Shown: piece by piece, positions 7,407 to 24,970 of the stretch
Layout of the letters: the number at the start of each line of letters is the position of its first letter
Position numbering within the stretch: the stretch's first letter is position 1
Virus record (IMG/VR): IMGVR_UViG_3300042453_001289
Coordinates: 1-28,063 of that record
Length of the DNA: 28,063 nucleotides
Reading direction: 5' to 3' (one strand)
Origin: a virus
Made by a program: the position numbers and the translations under genes
The notes under the pieces: model-generated
The model's input: only the letters and a program-made list of their open reading frames with translations
Told to the model about the DNA's origin: nothing
Databases searched by the model: none

Positions 7407-7673
7407 GTGCCACAATATAAAGAACTTGGTGTTAAAGAAGTTTTAGGTGGGGAAACAGCAGTTGCAGTTACTCCAAACAACAGTACTGATTTAGCTACAT
7501 TTCCTACTCGAGGAATTTATGTAGGTGTGTCTGGAAATATAAAAGTTGATATGGCTGGAACAGGAACTGCTATTATACTTAAAAATTTAGCGGCAGGCGT
7601 TGTTCATCCTCTAGCTGTAAAACGGGTTTATTCGACCGATACTACAGCAACTGATATCGTGGCGGTGTACTAA
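7407..7673 (+). CDS. Small beta-rich capsid-associated protein, resembles gene-transfer-agent spike base family
   Basis: An 88-aa protein starting at GTG 7407 with AAGGAGG at 7392-7398; a longer frame from 7353 would run through the hairpin and is rejected. The pattern is VAVTPNNSTDLA, FPTRGIYVGVSGNIKVDMAG, then a glycine turn, AAGVVHPLAVKRVYSTDTTA and TDIVAVY. This resembles small phage proteins annotated as spike base (Rcc01079-like), which in the Rhodobacter gene transfer agent sit on the capsid and anchor a spike. The family motif ratRgIyVG...GDlxVtm...lPixVxrVxxTGTTATdIvAlY fits well by eye. Neighbouring coat and LamG fibre genes fit the same role. Confidence 0.8.
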   Translation: MPQYKELGVKEVLGGETAVAVTPNNSTDLATFPTRGIYVGVSGNIKVDMAGTGTAIILKNLAAGVVHPLAVKRVYSTDTTATDIVAVY

Positions 7674-8491
7674 TGGTTGGGTTAGGGCTTGGTTTAGGTA
7701 CAGGCTTGCAAAATTACGTACCTTTTACACCTACAAATTTACCAGACTTAAAACTCTGGCTACCTGCCGACCGTATCAACCAAGCCAACAACACAGCAGT
7801 AGCGACTTGGAGCGACCAAAGCGGCAACGGCTATGACGCGACACAGTCCACCACAGCGGCGAGACCGACTTATATAGCGAGTGGGCTAAATGGGCTACCT
7901 GTGGTGCGGTTCGACGGGACAGATGATACTTTATCAGTACCGAGTAGTACGGCGACCTTTAAGTTTTTGCATAGTGACGTTTCTACGGTTTTTATCGTGG
8001 CAAAAGCAGGAGTAGTGTCAGACCCTGGTGTGGCCTATGGATTTTTACACACCGCAACAGGAACATCAGCAACAGGTTTTTATATAAGATTCACCGATAT
8101 AAGCCCGACCAATGACCGAATAGGACATAATATTTACTTTGGAACTGTTGGGCAAACTGTAGTGTCAAATAGTACACCTATCAACACATTTACAGCTAAT
8201 CAATTTAATTTTTTAAGCGTTTTATCCAAACCAAGCGATGCGGTGGCGGCAGAAAGGTCTGCTATATCAATAAATGGAGCGGTTGCAACACAATCGAATG
8301 TGCAAACAAACACTCCATCCACTTCGAATGCTACAAATGATTTAATAATAGGTGGCTCAATTTCTTCTACCACGCCATTCCTAAACGGCGACATAGGAGA
8401 AATCATCGTCTACAATCGCGCACTAAACACAAGCGAGCTTGCACAAGTCCACAAGTATCTTTCAATGAAATGGGGTATCACTCTTGCATAA
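7673..8491 (+). CDS. LamG/concanavalin-like fibre or capsid spike protein
   Basis: A 272-aa protein whose ATG shares a base with the preceding stop. After a Gly-rich start (GLGLGLGTGL) comes a domain of the LamG/concanavalin A-like lectin type. It opens with LKLWLPADRI, AVATWSDQSGNGYDATQ, RPTY and NGLPVVRFDGTDDTLSV, and closes with NGDIGEIIVYNRALNTSE and VHKYLSMKWGI. These are the standard ends of this domain in bacterial and phage surface proteins that bind glycans. A tail fibre or capsid spike role is inferred from position directly after the base-like gene. The ends are GC-rich and the middle AT-rich, a sign of mosaic origin. Confidence 0.85.
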   Translation: MVGLGLGLGTGLQNYVPFTPTNLPDLKLWLPADRINQANNTAVATWSDQSGNGYDATQSTTAARPTYIASGLNGLPVVRFDGTDDTLSVPSSTATFKFLHSDVSTVFIVAKAGVVSDPGVAYGFLHTATGTSATGFYIRFTDISPTNDRIGHNIYFGTVGQTVVSNSTPINTFTANQFNFLSVLSKPSDAVAAERSAISINGAVATQSNVQTNTPSTSNATNDLIIGGSISSTTPFLNGDIGEIIVYNRALNTSELAQVHKYLSMKWGITLA

Positions 8492-13792: not shown

Positions 13793-14095
13793 ATGGCACA
13801 CTATGCTTTTTTAGACGAAAACTCAATCGTCACAGAGGTTATCACAGGCAAAGACGAAAACGAGGATGGCATTGACTGGGAACAGTATTACGGCGAGTTT
13901 CGCGGGCAAGTCTGCAAGCGGACATCCTACAACACTCGCGCAGGAACTCACATCTCAGGAGGCGAACCGTTTCGCAAAAACTACGCAGGGATAGGGTACA
14001 CTTACGACCCTGACAGAGATGCCTTTATCCCACCAAAACCAGATGGAGACTATATTTTAAACGAAGAAACATGCTTATGGGAGATGTTGACATGA
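13793..14095 (+). CDS. Conserved small fibre-associated phage protein
   Basis: A 100-aa protein with ATG 13793 behind GAGGTGA. The start AHYAFLDENSIVTEVITGKD and the segment FRKNYAGIGYTYDPDRDAF followed by IPPKPDGDYILNEETCLWE match a well-known small phage protein family, found next to fibre genes in many cyanophages and other aquatic phages. Its role is not established; fibre assembly or attachment has been considered plausible because of location. It is the last gene of the GC-rich block. Its stop overlaps the glycosyltransferase start as ATGA. Confidence 0.85.
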   Translation: MAHYAFLDENSIVTEVITGKDENEDGIDWEQYYGEFRGQVCKRTSYNTRAGTHISGGEPFRKNYAGIGYTYDPDRDAFIPPKPDGDYILNEETCLWEMLT

Positions 14096-14715
14096 CAAAA
14101 GTATTAGTAGGGGTTCCAATCTATCGATCAGTTGAATTTAAAGTTTTTGAAAGTTTTTTAAGACTAGCTGGTTTAAAAAGCGAAACAAAACTTCAATTTT
14201 GTCTAATTTCAAGCTCATTAATTTATAATGCAAGGCAGTACATTGCAGAAGAATTTTTAAAAAGTGACTGTGACTTCCTGATGTTTATTGATTCAGATAT
14301 GACTTTTCACTCTAAAAGTATTGACATTTTGTTGGCACATGACAAAGAATTTGTAACTGCTAAAGCATTTAAACGAGAAAAACCTTATCAACCATGTTTC
14401 TACACCGGAATTAAATATGTTGATGGGCAACCCATGTTTCAAGCACCAAGTAGCTATGATGCAGAATTACTTCCCATTGAAGGTGCAGGACTTGCTTGTG
14501 CACTAATCAAGCGTTCAGCATTTGAAAAAATAGAAAAACCGTACTTCTTTCCTTATCCCAATCTTGGTGAAGACTTGACATTTTGTTTAAAACTTAGAAA
14601 AGCAGGAGTAGAATTGTTTTGTGATACTACATTGCAGTTCGGACATCTAAGTCAAATGGAAGTCTTCGAGCAAGATTTTGTAGATGCTTATGCAAAATTA
14701 GGTAAAAAAGAATGA
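14092..14715 (+). CDS. Glycosyltransferase, GT-A fold (first of two)
   Basis: A 207-aa enzyme that should transfer a sugar from a nucleotide sugar to a target not evident from sequence. Start ATG 14092 has GGGAGATG upstream and overlaps the previous stop; a longer frame from 14071 is less likely. VLVGVPIYRS begins the first Rossmann-like strand; the metal-binding DSD is at residues 67-69 (FIDSDMT), a GAGLACALIKRS loop follows, and the acceptor-side acidic pair GED is at 159-161 with H185 (FGHLS) after it. All key parts of a small GT-A domain are present. It lies between fibre and lysis genes, so viral fibres or host wall glycans are candidate acceptors. Confidence 0.85.
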   Translation: MTKVLVGVPIYRSVEFKVFESFLRLAGLKSETKLQFCLISSSLIYNARQYIAEEFLKSDCDFLMFIDSDMTFHSKSIDILLAHDKEFVTAKAFKREKPYQPCFYTGIKYVDGQPMFQAPSSYDAELLPIEGAGLACALIKRSAFEKIEKPYFFPYPNLGEDLTFCLKLRKAGVELFCDTTLQFGHLSQMEVFEQDFVDAYAKLGKKE

Positions 14716-15425
14716 AAATACTCATCGGTGCTCCCGTAAAACAAGACGAAACAATCTTTCAATATTATCTGAAATCTTTAGCAAATTTAGAATGTGAACA
14801 TCAAGTAGATTGGTTTTTTATCCTTCACAATTCGCCTGAATTAAAAAAATACTTAAAGCCTGAACAATACGATCTATACATTAACAATACAGAATACGAA
14901 GTCAACACCACTCATTATTGGCGAAAAGAAAACTTAAAAGACGTAACAATGATGAAAAATACTTTATTACAAAAAACGCTTGAAGAAGGCTACGACTATT
15001 TTTTTCTAGTTGATTCAGATATCATTCTACACCCGAAAACATTACAACATTTAATTATGCAGAATCAGCCGATAATATCGGAGATATTTTGGACGGCTTG
15101 GAATCCAGGCGAGGAACTTATGCCGAACGCATGGGATTATGATTTTTACGGGTTCAAACAACAAAATGATTGGCGCAAATTTGAGCAAAAAGCAGTTTGG
15201 CAAGTCGGTTATAGCGGAGCTTGCATATTAATTCATCGTGATGTTATAGAAGCAGGTGTTAACTATTCACCGATTCATAATGTATCATTCTCAACGTGGG
15301 AAGACCGAGCATTTTGTATTAGAGCCGCAGTACATGGATTTCAAGTTACAATGGATACACATTATCCAGCCACTCATTTATACCGAAAAGAAGACGTTGA
15401 CGCTTATAAATTAAAGGAGGTTTAA
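14712..15425 (+). CDS. Glycosyltransferase, GT-A fold (second of two)
   Basis: A 237-aa enzyme, coupled to the first by an ATGA overlap. MKILIGAPVKQD forms the first strand; DSD at residues 101-103 (FLVDSDIIL) is the metal site, WED at 196-198 (FSTWEDRAFC) the likely catalytic acid region, and H222 (ATHLY) the late His. It shares the layout of its neighbour but not close sequence, so it is not a simple recent duplicate. Two different transferases in a row suggest a two-sugar modification. Acceptor and donor cannot be read from the sequence. Confidence 0.85.
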   Translation: MKILIGAPVKQDETIFQYYLKSLANLECEHQVDWFFILHNSPELKKYLKPEQYDLYINNTEYEVNTTHYWRKENLKDVTMMKNTLLQKTLEEGYDYFFLVDSDIILHPKTLQHLIMQNQPIISEIFWTAWNPGEELMPNAWDYDFYGFKQQNDWRKFEQKAVWQVGYSGACILIHRDVIEAGVNYSPIHNVSFSTWEDRAFCIRAAVHGFQVTMDTHYPATHLYRKEDVDAYKLKEV

Positions 15426-15426
15426 C

Positions 15427-15822
15427 ATGAAACAACTAGCGGCAAATAGTGGTGTAGCATTTGTTGGCTCCATCGTTGGGTATTTATTTGGGGGGTGGAG
15501 CGAATTGTTGGCATTGTTCTTTTTCGTAGTTATTGTAGACTACATCACAGGCGTACTAGCGGCGATAACCGAAAAGAATCTTAGTTCCTCTGTAGGTTAT
15601 AAAGGGCTTGTTAAAAAGTTTGGTATGGTTATTGTAGTTGCAATGGCGTATCAATTAGATAAATTTACAGGTACAAACGTTATAATGTCTGGTGCTATTT
15701 TCTTTTTCGTAGCTAACGAACTCGTATCTATTACTGAAAACTATGGTCGTATCGGATTACCATTACCGCCACAGCTTAAAAACGTCATAAAAATACTGAG
15801 GGATAAAAATGACAATATTTAG
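15427..15822 (+). CDS. Holin
   Basis: A 131-aa membrane protein with ATG 15427 behind AAAGGAGG, so strongly translated. Hydrophobic stretches lie at about residues 8-22, 25-45 (ELLALFFFVVIVDYITGVLA), 68-80 and 88-102. The VDYITGVLAAITEKNLSSSV and GLVKKFGM patterns are typical of the phage holin family often named toxin secretion/phage lysis holin (Phage_holin_4). Holins open the membrane at a set time so that the lysin reaches the wall. It overlaps the lysin gene by 14 bases, the classical lysis cassette. Confidence 0.93.
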   Translation: MKQLAANSGVAFVGSIVGYLFGGWSELLALFFFVVIVDYITGVLAAITEKNLSSSVGYKGLVKKFGMVIVVAMAYQLDKFTGTNVIMSGAIFFFVANELVSITENYGRIGLPLPPQLKNVIKILRDKNDNI

Positions 15823-16372
15823 TGGATATCGAACTACAAGTCCGTATGGTGATCGTATACATCCAATAAAAAAGACAAAAATATTTCATCGAGGGATCGA
15901 CTTAGTTATAGGCAATAAAAAACCGATACTATCATTTACGGATGGCGAAGTAATATTTGCTAAAGAAGGTAAGGAAGGTTCAGGATTTGGTAATTATGGA
16001 AACGTTGTCGCTGTTCGAGATAAGAACGGTGCATTGCATTGTTACGCACATCTTGATACAATAGGAGTGAATGTTGGCAATATAGTGAAACGTGGCGACC
16101 CGATAGGCACAGAAGGGAACACAGGACAATCGGCAGGTTCACATTTGCATTACGAAGTACGTCTTAAAGATACTCCAAGTTTTGGGTTTGGCACTCATAC
16201 AGACCCTACAGAATACTTAACTAAATTCTATGAAGAAGAATTAAAAGTTAGCCCATGGGCGAGAGAAGCAGTAGAATGGGCAGTTAAAAATAAAATTACC
16301 GACACAGATGGTTTGAAGGAAACGCTAACAAAAGAGCAAATAATTACACTACTCTATCGAGCGAAAGGATGA
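15809..16372 (+). CDS. Endolysin: M23 endopeptidase with SLH-like C-terminus
   Basis: A 187-aa lysin that should cut peptide cross-links in host peptidoglycan. Start ATG 15809 has TGAGGG upstream. The LytM/M23 metallopeptidase core spans about residues 8-135. Zinc ligands are H27 and D31 (HRGID) and H114 in HLH (112-114); H81 (YAHLD) is the other active-site His. Residues 147-187 (SPWAREAVEWAVKNKITD, then LTKEQIITLLYRAKG) resemble one S-layer homology repeat, usually found in threes and binding secondary wall polymers. No signal peptide is seen, consistent with holin-dependent export. Confidence 0.93.
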   Translation: MTIFSGYRTTSPYGDRIHPIKKTKIFHRGIDLVIGNKKPILSFTDGEVIFAKEGKEGSGFGNYGNVVAVRDKNGALHCYAHLDTIGVNVGNIVKRGDPIGTEGNTGQSAGSHLHYEVRLKDTPSFGFGTHTDPTEYLTKFYEEELKVSPWAREAVEWAVKNKITDTDGLKETLTKEQIITLLYRAKG

Positions 16373-16962: not shown

Positions 16963-16991
16963 GCCAATGATTTGCGTCATTGGCTTTTCTT
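16963..16991 (+). terminator. Intrinsic terminator after the lysis region
   Basis: The 8-base stem GCCAATGA (16963-16970) pairs with TCATTGGC (16977-16984) around the loop TTTGCG and is followed by TTTTCTT. It begins eight bases after the stop of the 191-aa gene and its T run almost touches the ribosome site of the next gene, leaving no space for a new promoter. Confidence 0.85.
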
Positions 16992-17013
16992 AGAAAGGAG
17001 TGAAAGTTATTAT

Positions 17014-18912
17014 ATGCAATCACTAATGAATTTTTGGGATTTTGTTCCTGATAGTGTTAAAAAAAGCATGGGTTTTGGTACAATTGGTACAACACAACAA
17101 AAACAACCAAACAACCAATCTCAGCAACAACAAGTTGACCAGTCAAATAGAACTGGTCGTGGATACCGTACAGGGGTACCAACAAATGCTCCAGTTACAA
17201 CCCAAATGAATAGTTTGCAACCTTTATTTCAAAATGTTGTATACAACCCATCAACTTATGTAAATCCATCAGTAGCAAAAGGAACTACTACGGGAGCCGT
17301 AACATCAGCATCTATAGCAAAACCAGCATCTGTAACAACATCAGCATCAGCACCAAAAGCAACACCAAAAGTAACTGTTACATTACCTAATGGTACAAAA
17401 ACAACAGGGTTTATTAATCCTAAAGACAACAAAACATATTTTGATTCAGGATTTACAAAACCTGTAACAACAGCAGGTGCTAAAGTTACTAAAATTACAG
17501 GTGATAAACGAGAAGACTTTACTGTCGGTGGAACAGCGGCTCCTACAGGTGGAACAGGTGGTGGTACTGGTGGCACTACAGGTGGTGTGGCTGTAGGCGG
17601 TAATGTAGCTGGCACAGGAACAACAGGCGGTACTGAAACAGGAGCGGTTGGTGCTGGCGGTACTCAAGCAGGTACAGGTGGCACAGCGGCTCCAAAAGAA
17701 ACTCAAGCTACAGCTTTTTTACCTGACGGAAAAGGTGGTTTTACAGAAACACAAGCCTATGTTCGTGATGGTATAACTTACTATAAAGATGCAAACGGTG
17801 TTGAACAACGAGTTCCTGTTAATGCCATAGTGGATGTTAATGGTAAATTTTTTCAACGTGGCGAAACAGGTGGTAAACAATTATCAAGTACTGATATTAC
17901 AAATTTTCAAGCAGGATTGCAAGCTCAAAAACAAATCACTGCTCAAACTGACCAGATTAATAATTTCATGACCCGTCTTGATGCTAATCGCAATCAAGCG
18001 ATTATTGGTGCTGAACGGCAAGCTGAGATGGCAAGACAAGGTATGCAGAACCAAATGTTTCAAGATTGGTTAGGCGTAAGACAAGCCATGACGAATCGTG
18101 GGCTTACTGGTTCAGGTATCGCAGAAGACGCAAACACTCGACTTGCTTTAGGTCAACAACAACAATTGGCTAATCTGTTTACAGGTTTAAGCACTCAAAT
18201 CAACGAGATTAATCAAAATGCTGATTTGACTAAACAAGAAAAAGAACAACAAATTCTTGATTTGCAGAACTCGTATTTTGATTTACAACGTCAAATTGCT
18301 AGCGGCATGACCGAACAACAGTTAGCTCAACAAAAAACACAAGCTGAAATTCAACAAAATATTGACAAACAAAATCTTGAATTTGCAAAAGTTTTTGGGT
18401 TTGACCCTAAGACAGGGATTAAAACAGTTGAAGCTCAACAACTTGCGGCAAAAGTTGAAAATGATTTAAGAAATTACGGGTTGGATATTGCTAGATTAAG
18501 TGGATATTTAACAAGTAAAAATGATAAAGGTGAAACAGTAAGTATTCCTACTTTAGATCGTGATAAATTTGTTGAAGATCAAAGACAAGCTCAGGCGGCT
18601 AGACAAGATAAAATTAATGCAACGACTGCACAACTCATTGCTGATGGTCAAAAAGCTCAAGCTAAGGCTTATGATGATAAAGCAACAAGAATTGATAAAA
18701 GTCTTAAGAGTACAGAAGAAACAAATCATAAAGTATACAAAGCTATGGCTGATGTTTGGGCAAAAATTCCTGAAAAAGAAAGAGATAAAGATGCAGGAAT
18801 ACAAGCAAAAGCTAACCTTGATAATGCTTGGCAAGCGTGGTTAAAATCTGTTAATGAATTAAACTTATACAATAGCAATCCATCGGAATATATTAAAAAT
18901 TCAACCCTCTAA
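17014..18912 (+). CDS. Large internal virion/ejection-type protein with Gly-rich linker
   Basis: A 632-aa protein. Start ATG 17014 follows AAAGGAG (16994-17000) at a slightly long distance; a longer frame from 16972 would begin in the terminator. Residues 1-60 are Gln/Asn-rich. A Thr/Ala/Ser-rich region precedes a repeat-like stretch of GGTGGGTGGTTGG type (about 185-230), followed by a small beta segment (ETQAYVRDGITYYKDANGVE). From about 300 on there are long Gln-rich helices (AERQAEMARQGMQNQMFQDW; KQEKEQQILDLQNSYFDLQR). Long helical, low-complexity proteins here in podovirus gene order are generally ejected with the DNA. Function is inference; no enzyme motif is visible. Confidence 0.8.
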   Translation: MQSLMNFWDFVPDSVKKSMGFGTIGTTQQKQPNNQSQQQQVDQSNRTGRGYRTGVPTNAPVTTQMNSLQPLFQNVVYNPSTYVNPSVAKGTTTGAVTSASIAKPASVTTSASAPKATPKVTVTLPNGTKTTGFINPKDNKTYFDSGFTKPVTTAGAKVTKITGDKREDFTVGGTAAPTGGTGGGTGGTTGGVAVGGNVAGTGTTGGTETGAVGAGGTQAGTGGTAAPKETQATAFLPDGKGGFTETQAYVRDGITYYKDANGVEQRVPVNAIVDVNGKFFQRGETGGKQLSSTDITNFQAGLQAQKQITAQTDQINNFMTRLDANRNQAIIGAERQAEMARQGMQNQMFQDWLGVRQAMTNRGLTGSGIAEDANTRLALGQQQQLANLFTGLSTQINEINQNADLTKQEKEQQILDLQNSYFDLQRQIASGMTEQQLAQQKTQAEIQQNIDKQNLEFAKVFGFDPKTGIKTVEAQQLAAKVENDLRNYGLDIARLSGYLTSKNDKGETVSIPTLDRDKFVEDQRQAQAARQDKINATTAQLIADGQKAQAKAYDDKATRIDKSLKSTEETNHKVYKAMADVWAKIPEKERDKDAGIQAKANLDNAWQAWLKSVNELNLYNSNPSEYIKNSTL

Positions 18913-18930
18913 GTAAAGAAGGTGATTAGG

Positions 18931-21900
18931 ATGTCAATGAAAGAATCGGATATTTTAGATAGTATTTTATCTGCAAGAAAAAAAGAAAAAGAAACTCCAA
19001 ATCCTTATTTAAAAGAAATAATGTCAGTTCAAGATCGAGCTTTAAAGTATGACCCGTTAGCATTAACTAAATCAAAGTATGAGTTTAATTTAGGTCAATC
19101 AGGTGGGCAAGTCCCACCTATGGATTTTTCTATTGTAACAGGAGCAGGAAAAGAAAAGAAACCAAAAGGTGAAAATCCTTTTATTACTTTATTGTCTGCA
19201 CTTAATGGTGTTGTTGGCTTTATTCCTAATCAAATCTACAATTGGACAGATGGTAAAGCTGACTATAAAGATATACCTATAATCGGGAGTCAGTTCGACC
19301 CTCTTAAAGCAGGGTTAAAGAGCCAAAAAGATGCATGGAAAAATGGCGTATTTGACTGGAACGACATTCCGGGCATTGGTGTTTTAGCAGGTATGGGCAA
19401 AACCTACAAAACAGGTAAAGATATTTTAGTTGATAATCTAGGTGCAGAAAAATGGAAAGATGTTAAATACTCAGAAATTCGTAATAAAGATAAACCTTGG
19501 TATAGTAAAGAAAATATTGGAAAAATGTTTCAAGCTACGGACTGGGTTGATGTTTTAGGTTTAGGAATTGACATTGTTGCTGACCCTACAACATACTTAA
19601 CCTTTGGTGCTACAGGTGCCATAAAAGCATCAAGAGCGGCGGCTACTGCGGCAACAAAGTCTACCTTAGATGACTTAGTAAAACAAGGTGTTTCTGTTGT
19701 TGGAAAAGTTGATAAAAGTAAAGCACCGAATCAGGCTCTTGCCGATGTGGTTGAAGCGTCTGTTGAGAATAAAATGAAACAAGACTTTGCTCAACAAGTT
19801 GGAAAAAGTTTTGATGAGTATAGTAAAGATATGGATGCATTACGACAACAGGTTGAAGACCCTAACTTAAGACCAGCAGGGTTTGATGAAACATCAGCTA
19901 AGTCTGCTTTAGATTCTTTTGATGAAACATTTAGCAACATTCGTAAAGAATCTCAGTTAAAAGCACAAGAAGCATTTAACTTTGTAGATAACAAGATGAA
20001 AGAAGCTAGGCTCAGTATGCAGGATAAGCTCATTTCAATTGACATTCCTTTCACAGACTTTGTAAAAAGTTTTGGTAAAAAGCCAAAAATATTTACGAAA
20101 CTTGATCGGACAATTGATACAGTTGGTGAAACTGCAGTTCGTAACACTCTAAAGTTCTTAGGCTTTAAAGACTTGAAACAGATGGATGAAGTTGCTAAAC
20201 GGTTGTACGGAACTGAAAAGATATCTGGTATGACTTTGCAAGCGTCTAAACACTTTCAAGAAACAATTCAAAACTTCAACCAGAAACTGTCAAATAATAT
20301 TCTCAAAGCATTACATAAAGCAGGAACATCTGAAAGTGTTGCCGCGGAAGTTACTCGGGTATTGAATAACTATTCATTCAAGAACCAGCTTGGTGAAAAC
20401 ATAAGTAAAGTGCTAAGTGAGATAGACCCTGCAAACATTCGTTTTTCAACACGACAAAACGATGCTTTAATTAATGACCAACTTAAATTATATACAGATG
20501 AAATGAATGCTTTAAATATAATTCCGTTAGATGATGCTACTTTGCGGAATATGATGATGCAAGGGTTAGACCCAAACAATTTAAATGTTATGAAGGCTCA
20601 TCAGAACTTACTAAAAGGTCTAAGAGAACAACTAACTGCAAGCAACGCACCGCCTGAACAACTTGCTATTTTAGATAAACTTAAATTAAAATTCCAAGAG
20701 CAAGTTAAAGTTCAACGCGAACAAACCATAAAAGACCTTGAACCTGTACTTAAAAATATTGCAAATGATGTTGATACTGAAGTTAGTGCTTTTAGAAGTG
20801 CATTGCTTGGACAGATTGACCCTAACAATCCAACTCAAAAAGAGTTAAATGATTTAATTCAAAAACGAACATCAGAAGAAGAAGCTCTGACAACTCAACG
20901 ACAGGTAGACGAAGATACTCTAGTTGAACAACGTAGACTAGAGGAAGAATCGCTGACAAAAGAGATCGTTAGGTTAGACCAGTTAGCACAGGATTTAAAA
21001 AAGAATAAATCAAAATTTGCGTCAATTACAGAATTCTCAACTAAAGCGGATGAACTATATACTAAATTAATTGATGGTCAAACAACACCTAAGTATGCTG
21101 AATACAATGACAGCATGGTTCAGTTAATGCAATCTCAATTTAACTTTAAAAATATTGAGTTAAAAGACCAAAAAACGCGTTCTAAAGTCGACCAACAAAA
21201 ACGAGATGAATTACTTTACAACGGTGTACACAATGTTGCTACATCATTAAAAATGCTTTCGCAATACGGTTTTAAACAAGATTTTAGTGATTTAGATTTA
21301 GTTTTTGATTTGGTAAATGGTAATACAAAAGCGTTAGCTTCTTATCGCAGGGTTGGTTACAATGTTAAACAAATTTTAATTAATAATAACGGTGAAGCAT
21401 CATTTGTTCATGAATTTATGCATTATCTTGACGATACAATTCATCGAGCAGTTCATGATATTTATTTTCCAAACAAAGGCGATTACCAAAATAATTTGAA
21501 AACAGGTGATAGTCCTCTTGGCGGTGTATGGGCTAAGGGTAGTAAAAACGGCTTTTATAAAGAAGCAACAATTACTTTACCAGATGGCACGACAAAAACA
21601 GTAAAACATCCGTTTCATGATATTGCAAAAGATTTATTTAACAATAATGACTTTGTTAAAAATACTAAAGCAAATAAAGGCGATAGATATATTTATCAAG
21701 ATATTGAGATAATGTCTAGGTTTCTTAGTAGAGCTATGTATGAAAGATTAGGACTTGCACAGACTAAAGGCTTAAAGTTAGACCAAAATTTTATTGATCA
21801 TTTAAAAAATTACGCAAGTAAGCAAAGCCATGAACGTGAGGATATTTATACCGCACAAATTTTAGATGATGTCTTAAATAAATTAGATTCACTTTTTGAA

Positions 21901-24144
21901 GGTTACGGTCTTAAACAAGATGTAAAAGTATTAAAAACTCAAGAACGAAAAGTTATTAGCGACCAGAAAAAGAACATTAACAAAAACATTAAAGGCTTAG
22001 ATGCTAAATATCAGAAACAACTAAATGATGTCGAACAAAAATACCAAACAGATATTCAAAACTTGCAACAGAAGTATGACCCTGATATTGCTAAAGCACA
22101 AACAAAACTTGCTAAGTTTGAAAGTGACGTGCCAACTCTACAAAGAGAATTTGTGACGGCTAATAGGTTTCAGCAAGACATCACCAATCGCCGTTTAACA
22201 AGGTCAAAGTATTGGAACCCACATAGTCTTAGCTCAAAACAGAACTTCACTGAAAGTTTTGGTAAAGCTATTGCTGAAGCTGAAACCATGACTTACGGTG
22301 AAAAGGTTCGGATGCAAAACAATTTACGTGAAATTGATAAAGCAACTAAAGAATTTACGCAAGATGAACTTGCAGTTATCCCATACCTTTTACAAAACGC
22401 TTTCCCACGAGGGATGACAAAAGATCAGTTTTTAGCTAGCCGCGGAGTTACAAATGTAGCAAAAGTTGAAAACATTGTTAAGAAAATGGCAGACACTTAC
22501 GAAGAACTTGGCGTACTTGAACAGGAAATTGGGGCTATCGTTCGGTTAGGTGAAAACTATTTCCCTCATGTTTATACAAAGCCTGATGCGGAAGCCTTAG
22601 CCGAACTTGAAAGTTTAGCTAAAGATTTTCCTGATGACCCGTTAGTTAAGGAACTTATGGGAAGAAGTCAAAAGTTAGGATTCGATAAGGCTAGAAGAAG
22701 TTTTCAAACATTAGCAGACCTAGATGACTACATTGATAAAGTTGATGATCAAATCCGAAACGCAACAGACCCAGATCAAATTGCATTATTAGAAGGAAAG
22801 AAGACTCGTCTTGAAGGTCTGATTGAGCGTAATCCAATTAATGCTATGGCTATTCGTATGTCCCGTTCAATTCGAGCTAGAGTTAACAAACAATTGTATG
22901 ACAACTTCGAACGTAACAGTATGCTTGTTCGGAAGAAAAATTTAAGCAATGTGTCTTATGATAAGTCCATGATGAAAACGTTAGAAAAAGAAGAAGCAAG
23001 ACTGTTAGGTTTAGAACCCGGAGATTTGATTAATAAAGAAATATTCGATGGATTAAAGAAAATAGATGGATTGTTGAAGGATGATAAGATTGATCGTATT
23101 CTTCAACAAATTGATTCGGTGCAATCTATATGGAAACAAGTCATCACTTCATTAGTCCCTAAGTATTATGTGTACAACTTAATCGGCAACATCTTCAATA
23201 ATGCTTTAGCAGGTGTGTCGATGTCTTCATACCGTGAAGCCGCAAGTTTAGTTAAACGAATTAAAACTAAAAAATTAACACCACAAGACAAAAAACTCTT
23301 TAATAACGCAATACAAGATGGGGTTATTTATCAAGGTTTCTTGACAGATATGGGTAAGTATTTTAAAAACTTAGACCCAAATGAAGCGTATCAACCAACT
23401 TATGGGCAAAGATTTCAAGAATTCGTTGGAGAAAAAACAAAGAACATTCCTGTACTCGGAACTGAAAAGTTAAGTTACAAACGAAACCTTGAAAAAGTTG
23501 GAGAAATCACCGATGACTTTACAAGATTAGCAAACTATATTGATAACTTGAAGAAAACAGGTTCACGTGAATTAGCTAGAGCGTCTGTTGCAAAGTACTT
23601 GTTTAACTATCGAGAACTATCTCGTGGCGATCGTTACATTCGTCAGTTGTTGCCTTTCTGGACATGGACTCGTAATAATATACCTTTGCAGTTAGAGAAG
23701 TTATTCACTGAACCACGATTTGCTCTTACATGGTTAAAGATTAAAAGAGAAATGCAAGGCGATCTAGAAGACGAAGATGTGCCAGATTGGATTTTAGAAA
23801 GTAGTTTTATGATTGGCGACAAAGCATTTGACCCACGACTTCCAATGACAGACTTAAACATGATATTTAAAAATACTCCGCCAGAACTGTTTTCTGAATG
23901 GATGGGTATGATGAACCCAGTTGTAAAAAATGTGATCGAGTTGTCTATGAATAAAAAATTCTTTAACCAAAGACCAATTTATTATGGCGAAACTCCTGCA
24001 CAAGACTACACAGCTTATGCACTACAGCAACTTGGTCAGTATGGTTCAACGACAGCTAACATTTTGTTTAAAGAAGAAGCAAATATTCCAGAAGAAATTG
24101 CTAAAATATTTACACCTGTTCCTAGAGAAATTCCGGGGAGGTAA
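18931..24144 (+). CDS. Giant ejection-type polyvalent protein with HExxH zincin motif
   Basis: At 1737 aa this is the largest gene. Start ATG 18931 has AGAAGGTGA upstream; GTG 18922 is an alternative. Near residue 217 is ADPTTYLTFGATGAIKASRA, a motif of large internal phage proteins. Coiled coils lie at about 634-693 and 1007-1067. HEFMH at 827-831 (in EASFVHEFMHYLDD) is an HExxH zinc site resembling HEWGHALDN of large-polyvalent zincin domains; E926 (DIEIMSRFLSRAMYE) could be the third ligand. The C-terminal part, YYVYNLIGNIFNNALAG (from 1412) and LPFWTWTRNNIP (about 1574), resembles LPD38-type ends of phage polyvalent proteins. Likely enters the host with the DNA; a peptidase role is unproven. 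Confidence 0.87.
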   Translation: MSMKESDILDSILSARKKEKETPNPYLKEIMSVQDRALKYDPLALTKSKYEFNLGQSGGQVPPMDFSIVTGAGKEKKPKGENPFITLLSALNGVVGFIPNQIYNWTDGKADYKDIPIIGSQFDPLKAGLKSQKDAWKNGVFDWNDIPGIGVLAGMGKTYKTGKDILVDNLGAEKWKDVKYSEIRNKDKPWYSKENIGKMFQATDWVDVLGLGIDIVADPTTYLTFGATGAIKASRAAATAATKSTLDDLVKQGVSVVGKVDKSKAPNQALADVVEASVENKMKQDFAQQVGKSFDEYSKDMDALRQQVEDPNLRPAGFDETSAKSALDSFDETFSNIRKESQLKAQEAFNFVDNKMKEARLSMQDKLISIDIPFTDFVKSFGKKPKIFTKLDRTIDTVGETAVRNTLKFLGFKDLKQMDEVAKRLYGTEKISGMTLQASKHFQETIQNFNQKLSNNILKALHKAGTSESVAAEVTRVLNNYSFKNQLGENISKVLSEIDPANIRFSTRQNDALINDQLKLYTDEMNALNIIPLDDATLRNMMMQGLDPNNLNVMKAHQNLLKGLREQLTASNAPPEQLAILDKLKLKFQEQVKVQREQTIKDLEPVLKNIANDVDTEVSAFRSALLGQIDPNNPTQKELNDLIQKRTSEEEALTTQRQVDEDTLVEQRRLEEESLTKEIVRLDQLAQDLKKNKSKFASITEFSTKADELYTKLIDGQTTPKYAEYNDSMVQLMQSQFNFKNIELKDQKTRSKVDQQKRDELLYNGVHNVATSLKMLSQYGFKQDFSDLDLVFDLVNGNTKALASYRRVGYNVKQILINNNGEASFVHEFMHYLDDTIHRAVHDIYFPNKGDYQNNLKTGDSPLGGVWAKGSKNGFYKEATITLPDGTTKTVKHPFHDIAKDLFNNNDFVKNTKANKGDRYIYQDIEIMSRFLSRAMYERLGLAQTKGLKLDQNFIDHLKNYASKQSHEREDIYTAQILDDVLNKLDSLFEGYGLKQDVKVLKTQERKVISDQKKNINKNIKGLDAKYQKQLNDVEQKYQTDIQNLQQKYDPDIAKAQTKLAKFESDVPTLQREFVTANRFQQDITNRRLTRSKYWNPHSLSSKQNFTESFGKAIAEAETMTYGEKVRMQNNLREIDKATKEFTQDELAVIPYLLQNAFPRGMTKDQFLASRGVTNVAKVENIVKKMADTYEELGVLEQEIGAIVRLGENYFPHVYTKPDAEALAELESLAKDFPDDPLVKELMGRSQKLGFDKARRSFQTLADLDDYIDKVDDQIRNATDPDQIALLEGKKTRLEGLIERNPINAMAIRMSRSIRARVNKQLYDNFERNSMLVRKKNLSNVSYDKSMMKTLEKEEARLLGLEPGDLINKEIFDGLKKIDGLLKDDKIDRILQQIDSVQSIWKQVITSLVPKYYVYNLIGNIFNNALAGVSMSSYREAASLVKRIKTKKLTPQDKKLFNNAIQDGVIYQGFLTDMGKYFKNLDPNEAYQPTYGQRFQEFVGEKTKNIPVLGTEKLSYKRNLEKVGEITDDFTRLANYIDNLKKTGSRELARASVAKYLFNYRELSRGDRYIRQLLPFWTWTRNNIPLQLEKLFTEPRFALTWLKIKREMQGDLEDEDVPDWILESSFMIGDKAFDPRLPMTDLNMIFKNTPPELFSEWMGMMNPVVKNVIELSMNKKFFNQRPIYYGETPAQDYTAYALQQLGQYGSTTANILFKEEANIPEEIAKIFTPVPREIPGR

Positions 24145-24148
24145 ATAA

Positions 24149-24970
24149 ATGTCGTTTAACAATCTGAAACAACTAGAATCAGAACTTGCGGAGCATTATA
24201 TGTTCCGCAGGTTCGAAGATTCAGAGCGGTTGTATTTCACAGATTTAAGCGACCTGCATATCGGGCATAAAGGATTTGACGAAAAGAACTTCCGTAAGAC
24301 CGTAGATATAATTGCTCAAATACCAAACTTTCTAGTTATCCTTGGAGGAGATAGCATCAACCATGCCAATAAAGGGTCAAAGTCTTCACAGTACGAAGAA
24401 TCAATGACCCCACGAGAGCAGGTTCTATATCTAGAGAAGCTCATTGCTCCTATCAAAGATAAAATCATAGGCAAAGTAGACGGTAACCACGATGGTACCA
24501 GAGCAAAAGAGTTTAACGATATATCACCTATGGAATGGTTTTGTGACCGTAATAACATCCGATACTTTAAAGAGTATGCGATACTTCATTTCTCGATGAA
24601 GGACTCATCATTCACACATTATATTCATCATCGTTCAGGTAGTACAGGAAAGAACTTGAATGCGGCTAAAATGCAAGCAAAAGGTGAGGAATATAGATGT
24701 GATGTGATTTGGGGTGAACACACGCATAAAAGGCATTGGTCATCCGAAGTCTATGTTGACATAGATTTACGGAACCAAAAGCCTGTTATACGTGAACAGT
24801 ATTTTGTTAATGCTAACACATTTCTAAACTGGTCTGGCTATGCAATTGAATCTGGGTATCGTATTAATAAAACGGGTATCAACATTGTCGAGATGAGAAG
24901 CAAAGACAGAGTGCGAAATATAAAAGTTTTAGATATGGATACCTTTATTCAATTACAGGCGAACTCATAG
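24149..24970 (+). CDS. Calcineurin-like metallophosphoesterase
   Basis: A 273-aa enzyme of the two-metal phosphoesterase superfamily. Metal-binding motifs appear in order: DLHIG (D35, H37), GGD (66-68), GNHD (112-115), a His pair (H160/H161) and GEHTH (189-193). All are intact, so it should be active on a phosphodiester or phosphomonoester, but the substrate is unknown. Phage relatives are often grouped with Mre11/SbcD-like or DNA-repair phosphatases only by fold. ATG 24149 is behind GGGGAGG. It ends the late + strand unit and overlaps, tail to tail, the last gene of the - strand unit by 26 bases. Being in the late unit is unusual for a nucleic-acid enzyme. Confidence 0.9.
   Translation: MSFNNLKQLESELAEHYMFRRFEDSERLYFTDLSDLHIGHKGFDEKNFRKTVDIIAQIPNFLVILGGDSINHANKGSKSSQYEESMTPREQVLYLEKLIAPIKDKIIGKVDGNHDGTRAKEFNDISPMEWFCDRNNIRYFKEYAILHFSMKDSSFTHYIHHRSGSTGKNLNAAKMQAKGEEYRCDVIWGEHTHKRHWSSEVYVDIDLRNQKPVIREQYFVNANTFLNWSGYAIESGYRINKTGINIVEMRSKDRVRNIKVLDMDTFIQLQANS

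Follow-up and report, generated by a model that had tools for sequence, protein, structure and literature searches.

A candidate zincin-type metallopeptidase site in the exchangeable middle of a giant ejection-type podophage protein

A giant 1737-aa protein is encoded on the forward strand, at 18931-24144, of the window that we analyzed, a stretch of 28,063 nucleotides comprising positions 1 to 28,063 of IMG/VR virus record IMGVR_UViG_3300042453_001289. The original prediction placed a zinc metallopeptidase site in the middle of this protein (P0001) and suggested that the phage injects it along with its genome. Does this locus deliver a peptidase into the host cell, and if so, what might that peptidase act upon? 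The gene starts with the ATG at 18931; the AAGAAGG ahead of it provides the ribosome-binding site and is itself overlapped by an in-frame GTG at 18922. Translation confirmed HEFMH at residues 827-831 (21409-21423, + strand; context EASFVHEFMHYLDD) and showed it to be the sole HExxH in the protein. H827 and H831 are the presumed zinc ligands and E828 the presumed general base of a candidate zincin domain that we delimited, from the motif and a low-confidence model, to residues 747-985 (21169-21885, + strand).

We compared this motif with what chance would provide. Histidine content in the giant protein is low (0.8%), and HExxH is expected 0.0115 times per shuffled protein, or 0.0072 times analytically. 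The residues SFVHEFMHY (824-832) also satisfy an extended, PROSITE-style zinc-protease signature, which we take to be [GSTALIVN]-{PCHR}-{KND}-H-E-[LIVMFYW]-{DEHRKP}-H-[LIVMFYWGSPQ] and for which the chance expectation is 0.00028. The HEFMH motif is far beyond chance. A bare HExxH is nonetheless insufficient proof, since one relative (L024) has a chance HELTH within YLFNYHE, a conserved but non-catalytic motif of its C-domain; that HELTH fails the longer signature. L024 thus provides a precedent for the explanation that HEFMH arose by chance within a helical insert and forms no zinc site, to which we return below.

E926, the glutamate of DIEIMSRFLSRAMYE situated 99 residues past H827 (21706-21708, + strand), had been proposed as the third zinc ligand. 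To provide reference helices, we used phage proteins with HE-hydrophobic-x-HY-hydrophobic-DD together with relatives of the zincin of phage BA3, many of which have an E-x-x-A-[ERFYD]-type helix 23 to 162 residues downstream of the motif, and all glutamates of the window protein were scored against 15 such helices. Of the six glutamates from residue 832 to 1000, E926 scored best (-5.8, versus -13.4 for the next), and it ranked third of 109 across the whole protein. Support for E926 is therefore moderate, although the modelled helix into which it falls has a pLDDT of only about 50. A single copy of the candidate domain is known.

Structure prediction was less informative. AlphaFold2 returned a pLDDT of 39 for the domain alone and of 57 when guided by an alignment of 17 zincin segments, only one of which reaches the E926 helix. 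The guided model places a helix (752-778) ahead of three strands (789-791, 801-806 and 815-818), a helix that carries HEFMH (822-845), a hairpin (878-892), and a helix that carries E926 (916-946). Helix, three strands, HExxH helix, and Glu helix is also the order described for the MPTases of polyvalent proteins (PMC5512222), an agreement that is partly circular since the alignment contained zincins, and Foldseek found no zincin among PDB or viral models. Given the circularity of the guided model and the negative structural search, we conclude that neither model counts as support, even though the expected order of elements did appear.

Searches for relatives of the domain gave a similar picture. 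Neither the protein nor the domain had a significant match in Pfam, PHROGs, NCBIfam, or PDB sequences, scans of IMG/VR found no relatives of the domain, and tblastn of the domain returned nothing from phage records and chance matches only from plasmid records. The MPTase-PolyVal profile (PF18818) did not match the window even at an E value of 10. A profile of BA3-type zincins aligned with the motif segment over 13 columns only (P 0.0043), and the upstream strands scored at chance against the polyvalent-zincin profile (-3.0, against a shuffle 95% point of 0.2). A scan for HE[FLIMV]xHY[FLIMV]DD recovered 44 stretches and yielded phage zincins whose third helix is of the E..A type. Among these, L095 came nearest to the window in layout, with HELMHYFDD followed 100 residues on by TEIMAFS (99 in the window). 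We rejected L095 as a demonstrated homologue because its score was reached by 14 of 300 shuffles in which the motif was kept, and similarity to known phage zincins outside the motif was not above chance. Judged by sequence, the candidate domain is an orphan to which no known zincin family can be assigned.

This orphan status, the restriction of similarity to about 13 columns, the HELTH of L024, and the Foldseek result are all what a chance motif would produce. However, the full signature is expected only about 0.0003 times, the E926 helix fits, and polyvalent proteins of similar type provide a prior for zincins (PMC5512222), so we consider a chance origin rather improbable. That the domain is a zincin is, in our assessment, probable.

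By sequence comparison, the protein around the candidate domain belongs to a family of podophage giants in which a conserved N-domain and an LPD38-related C-domain flank a variable insert. The N-terminal scaffold region (residues ~25-442; 19003-20256, + strand) was detected by blastp to the giant of a closely related virus, G004, and to several other giants, and conservation of this part (~25-440) extends across the family. The insert (residues ~520-1087; 20490-22191, + strand) is absent or different in all relatives, and within it long, helical, coiled-coil-like stretches appear to flank the HExxH domain on both sides. The C-terminal scaffold (residues 1088-1737; 22192-24141, + strand) was delimited by alignments A1 and A3 and by hhalign, and these 650 residues are kept at 29-39% identity in at least eight other IMG/VR virus records and one MAG contig; when ~790 genomes of two phyla were searched, the C-domain proved to be very rare. 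Most giants of the family have 1.0-1.4 kaa, with most or all of the middle missing.

The C-terminus had been called LPD38-like, a description that survives at a greater distance than the name suggests. The LPD38 profile itself (PF18857) scored 10.2 bits on the window, below its 27-bit cut-off, whereas hhalign of the window's C-domain family (A3) against LPD38 members (A4) gave 95.7% and an E value of 9.3e-9 over 162 columns. At the superfamily level, then, profile comparison makes the C-domain a distant homologue of LPD38. True LPD38 is found at a comparable late position in gp20 of Bacillus phage Page (2.6e-30), and true LPD38 phage giants carry variable enzymes, including a methyltransferase, an inorganic pyrophosphatase, and a sub-threshold match to an ADP-ribosyltransferase. 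The LPD38 giants of BA3 (L052) and X14 (L057) have an unannotated zincin-type site in mid-protein, HEMAHYLD...EGFAEF, without a Pfam match, and this type of domain is conserved in 19 IMG/VR loci; the LPD38 giant of MinM2 contains two HExxH. We recognized no second effector domain in the window giant with Pfam, PHROGs, or NCBIfam, and the candidate zincin thus stands alone in a protein whose polyvalent counterparts have two or more disparate effector domains per polypeptide.

Comparison with G004 revealed how this giant gene behaves among close relatives. The two viruses are near-identical in their terminase (96.7% amino acid identity), portal (99.8%), capsid protein (MCP, 96.6%), and M23 endopeptidase (95.7%), and most other genes are ~86-97% identical in DNA. 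The block at 18922-24970, however, is replaced relative to G004 (L019/L025). The G004 giant (L025) has 2298 aa, is 27-35% identical to that of the window over the aligned parts, contains no HExxH, and has an insert of ~1150 aa in which no domain was recognized. Directly 3' of the giant gene, the window encodes a calcineurin-like phosphoesterase (24149-24970, + strand; phrog_7339, E 3e-27) for which tblastn found no homologue in G004, in a second related virus (G006), or in phage API480, and DNA beyond 24970 is 95.8% identical to that of G004. Given that G004 is near-identical and yet has a divergent giant and no phosphoesterase, with identity resuming beyond, we conclude that the giant gene and the phosphoesterase gene were exchanged together as one block.

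G006 (IMG/VR 3300045999_008377) is more distant, with a portal 56% identical to that of the window, and its giant has the same N- and C-scaffold. In the interval that corresponds to the window insert, the G006 giant has a zincin-type HEIGH...SEWFADQ (L028:6846-7445). The domain around it has a match to phrog_4529, 'minor head protein and DNA pilot' (3.6e-5), and a weak one to phrog_87, 'metallo-protease'. We detected no sequence similarity between the HEIGH domain and the candidate domain of the window. Since two different zincin-type sites share one interval, while the sister allele has none, the candidate peptidase looks like exchangeable accessory cargo. The original reading of a zincin site in a polyvalent-type giant was thus strengthened by the motif, by E926, by the related C-domain, and by the separate site in G006, although neither PF18818 nor Foldseek linked the domain to known zincins.

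Other genes of the window also differ in distribution or order among these viruses. A LamG-like protein, recognized by eye (7673-8491), is present in G006 and not in G004 and represents another exchanged virion gene, and two neighboring glycosyltransferase-like genes, also recognized by eye (14071-15425), have no homologue in G004, G006, or API480. Immediately ahead of the giant gene lies a 646-aa protein (16972-18912) that is 47% identical to its G004 counterpart over most of its length; it has no family match and is probably a second ejection protein. The lysis genes stand upstream of these ejection-type genes, whereas in API480 the giant gene stands before the lysis genes.

What, then, could the domain do? 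Opening of the cell wall had been one suggestion, and we rejected it as the main role: a holin-like gene and, after it, the gene for an M23 metallo-endopeptidase lie at 15427-16372, common to the window and G004 at 96-98% identity, and this near-identical phage does without the HExxH domain. Obligatory processing of virion proteins is unlikely as well, in that G004 carries an allele without the domain. Accessory-cargo status argues against both of these roles, and our comparisons favor peptidase action inside the host.

The main rival to this reading is that the zincin-like peptidase has the giant protein itself as substrate and frees parts of it, either ahead of packaging or once inside the cell. 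For the MPTase domains of polyvalent proteins, self-cleavage has been put forward as a general function (PMC5512222). DdrB of phage P1 is processed before packaging, and the window domain sits between two conserved scaffold parts that a cut would separate. However, we found no second effector domain that would need release, and the sister allele and compact relatives keep their N- and C-domains without such an HExxH, so that cleavage is unnecessary for scaffold function. We regard self-cleavage as unlikely. It is also conceivable that a zincin-like fold or metal site serves as a structural element of the virion or ejection channel and cleaves no protein, a reading that could explain the poor match of the domain to catalytic families; in addition, one HEFIHYLDD protein from the motif scan (L038) weakly matches the virion ring family CrAss_Ring_3_4 (E 0.0003, below cut-off). 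Structural derivatives of zincins often lose the glutamate of HExxH, whereas all four catalytic-type residues are present here, which makes a structural role very unlikely.

Our preferred reading is therefore that of an injected peptidase acting inside the host. On this reading the protein would be an ejection-type giant of a podophage built on the polyvalent plan, in which the N-domain and LPD38-related C-domain presumably form a scaffold for packaging and delivery. The region between them would hold exchangeable cargo, here a divergent zincin-like metallopeptidase domain that would bind zinc through H827, H831, and E926 and use E828 as general base. The giant protein would be packaged and enter the cell with the phage DNA, as suggested by its family, its late-gene position, and the LPD38 giant gp69 of phage JC1, for which CsCl-purified virions yielded 51 unique peptides (PMC9144972). 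Early in infection, the peptidase may then cleave a protein of the host or of a competing element, an accessory activity that is replaced in the sister phage. We hold this whole chain, from ejection-type giant to cleavage in the host, to be evenly poised between right and wrong.

Injected phage peptidases are widely predicted and hardly tested, and the window phage and G004 form a natural pair with and without the domain; the exchange between them is the more interesting by-product of this analysis. If the domain is real, it could reveal which host protein a phage gains from cleaving as infection begins, be it a defence factor, RNA polymerase, or the product of a competitor. More speculatively, and with our own expectation leaning against it, the domain may represent an undescribed zincin family serving as exchangeable cargo of podophage ejection proteins, with near-identical phages swapping the giant gene and so alternating between different injected peptidases or other effectors. 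If this were true, swapping of the giant gene would correspond, in phages, to polymorphic effector exchange. The comparisons also define a wider family of LPD38-related giant ejection-type proteins, missed by Pfam, in which the frame is fixed and the middle exchangeable.

Several known systems resemble this locus in part. No domain is commoner in polyvalent proteins than the zincin, which occurs in ~36% of them (PMC5512222). Like MPTase-PolyVal (PF18818; Iyer et al. 2017, PMC5512222), the window domain pairs an HExxH with a later glutamate modelled on a helix of its own, lies midway along a giant late phage protein, and has a variable insert between the two helices and a plausible order of helix, three strands, and helix; unlike it, the window domain has no profile match at an E value of 10, its upstream strands are unrecognizable by sequence, and it is accompanied by no other recognized effector domain. 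The LPD38-terminated podophage giants of Bacillus phage Page (gp20), Thalassomonas phage BA3, Shewanella phage X14, and Escherichia phage PTXU04 share a C-domain that is homologous by profile comparison and a variable middle with enzymes, and BA3 and X14 also share a zincin-type site, whereas the C-domain of the window and the eight relatives aligned with it branch off separately, under the Pfam cut-off. The virion RNA polymerase gp50 of phage N4 is likewise a giant that the virion delivers, and it contains an HExxH zincin region (PMC5512222), although the window giant has no recognized RNA polymerase domain. Among short-tailed phages, T7 gp16 and the P22 ejection proteins are also large, predominantly helical late proteins whose enzyme domains can be exchanged (PMC8954989), but we found no sequence relationship between them and the window giant, and the T7 enzyme is a transglycosylase. 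Zincins in giant injected phage proteins are thus a known theme, of which the window site is a probable further, sequence-orphan case.
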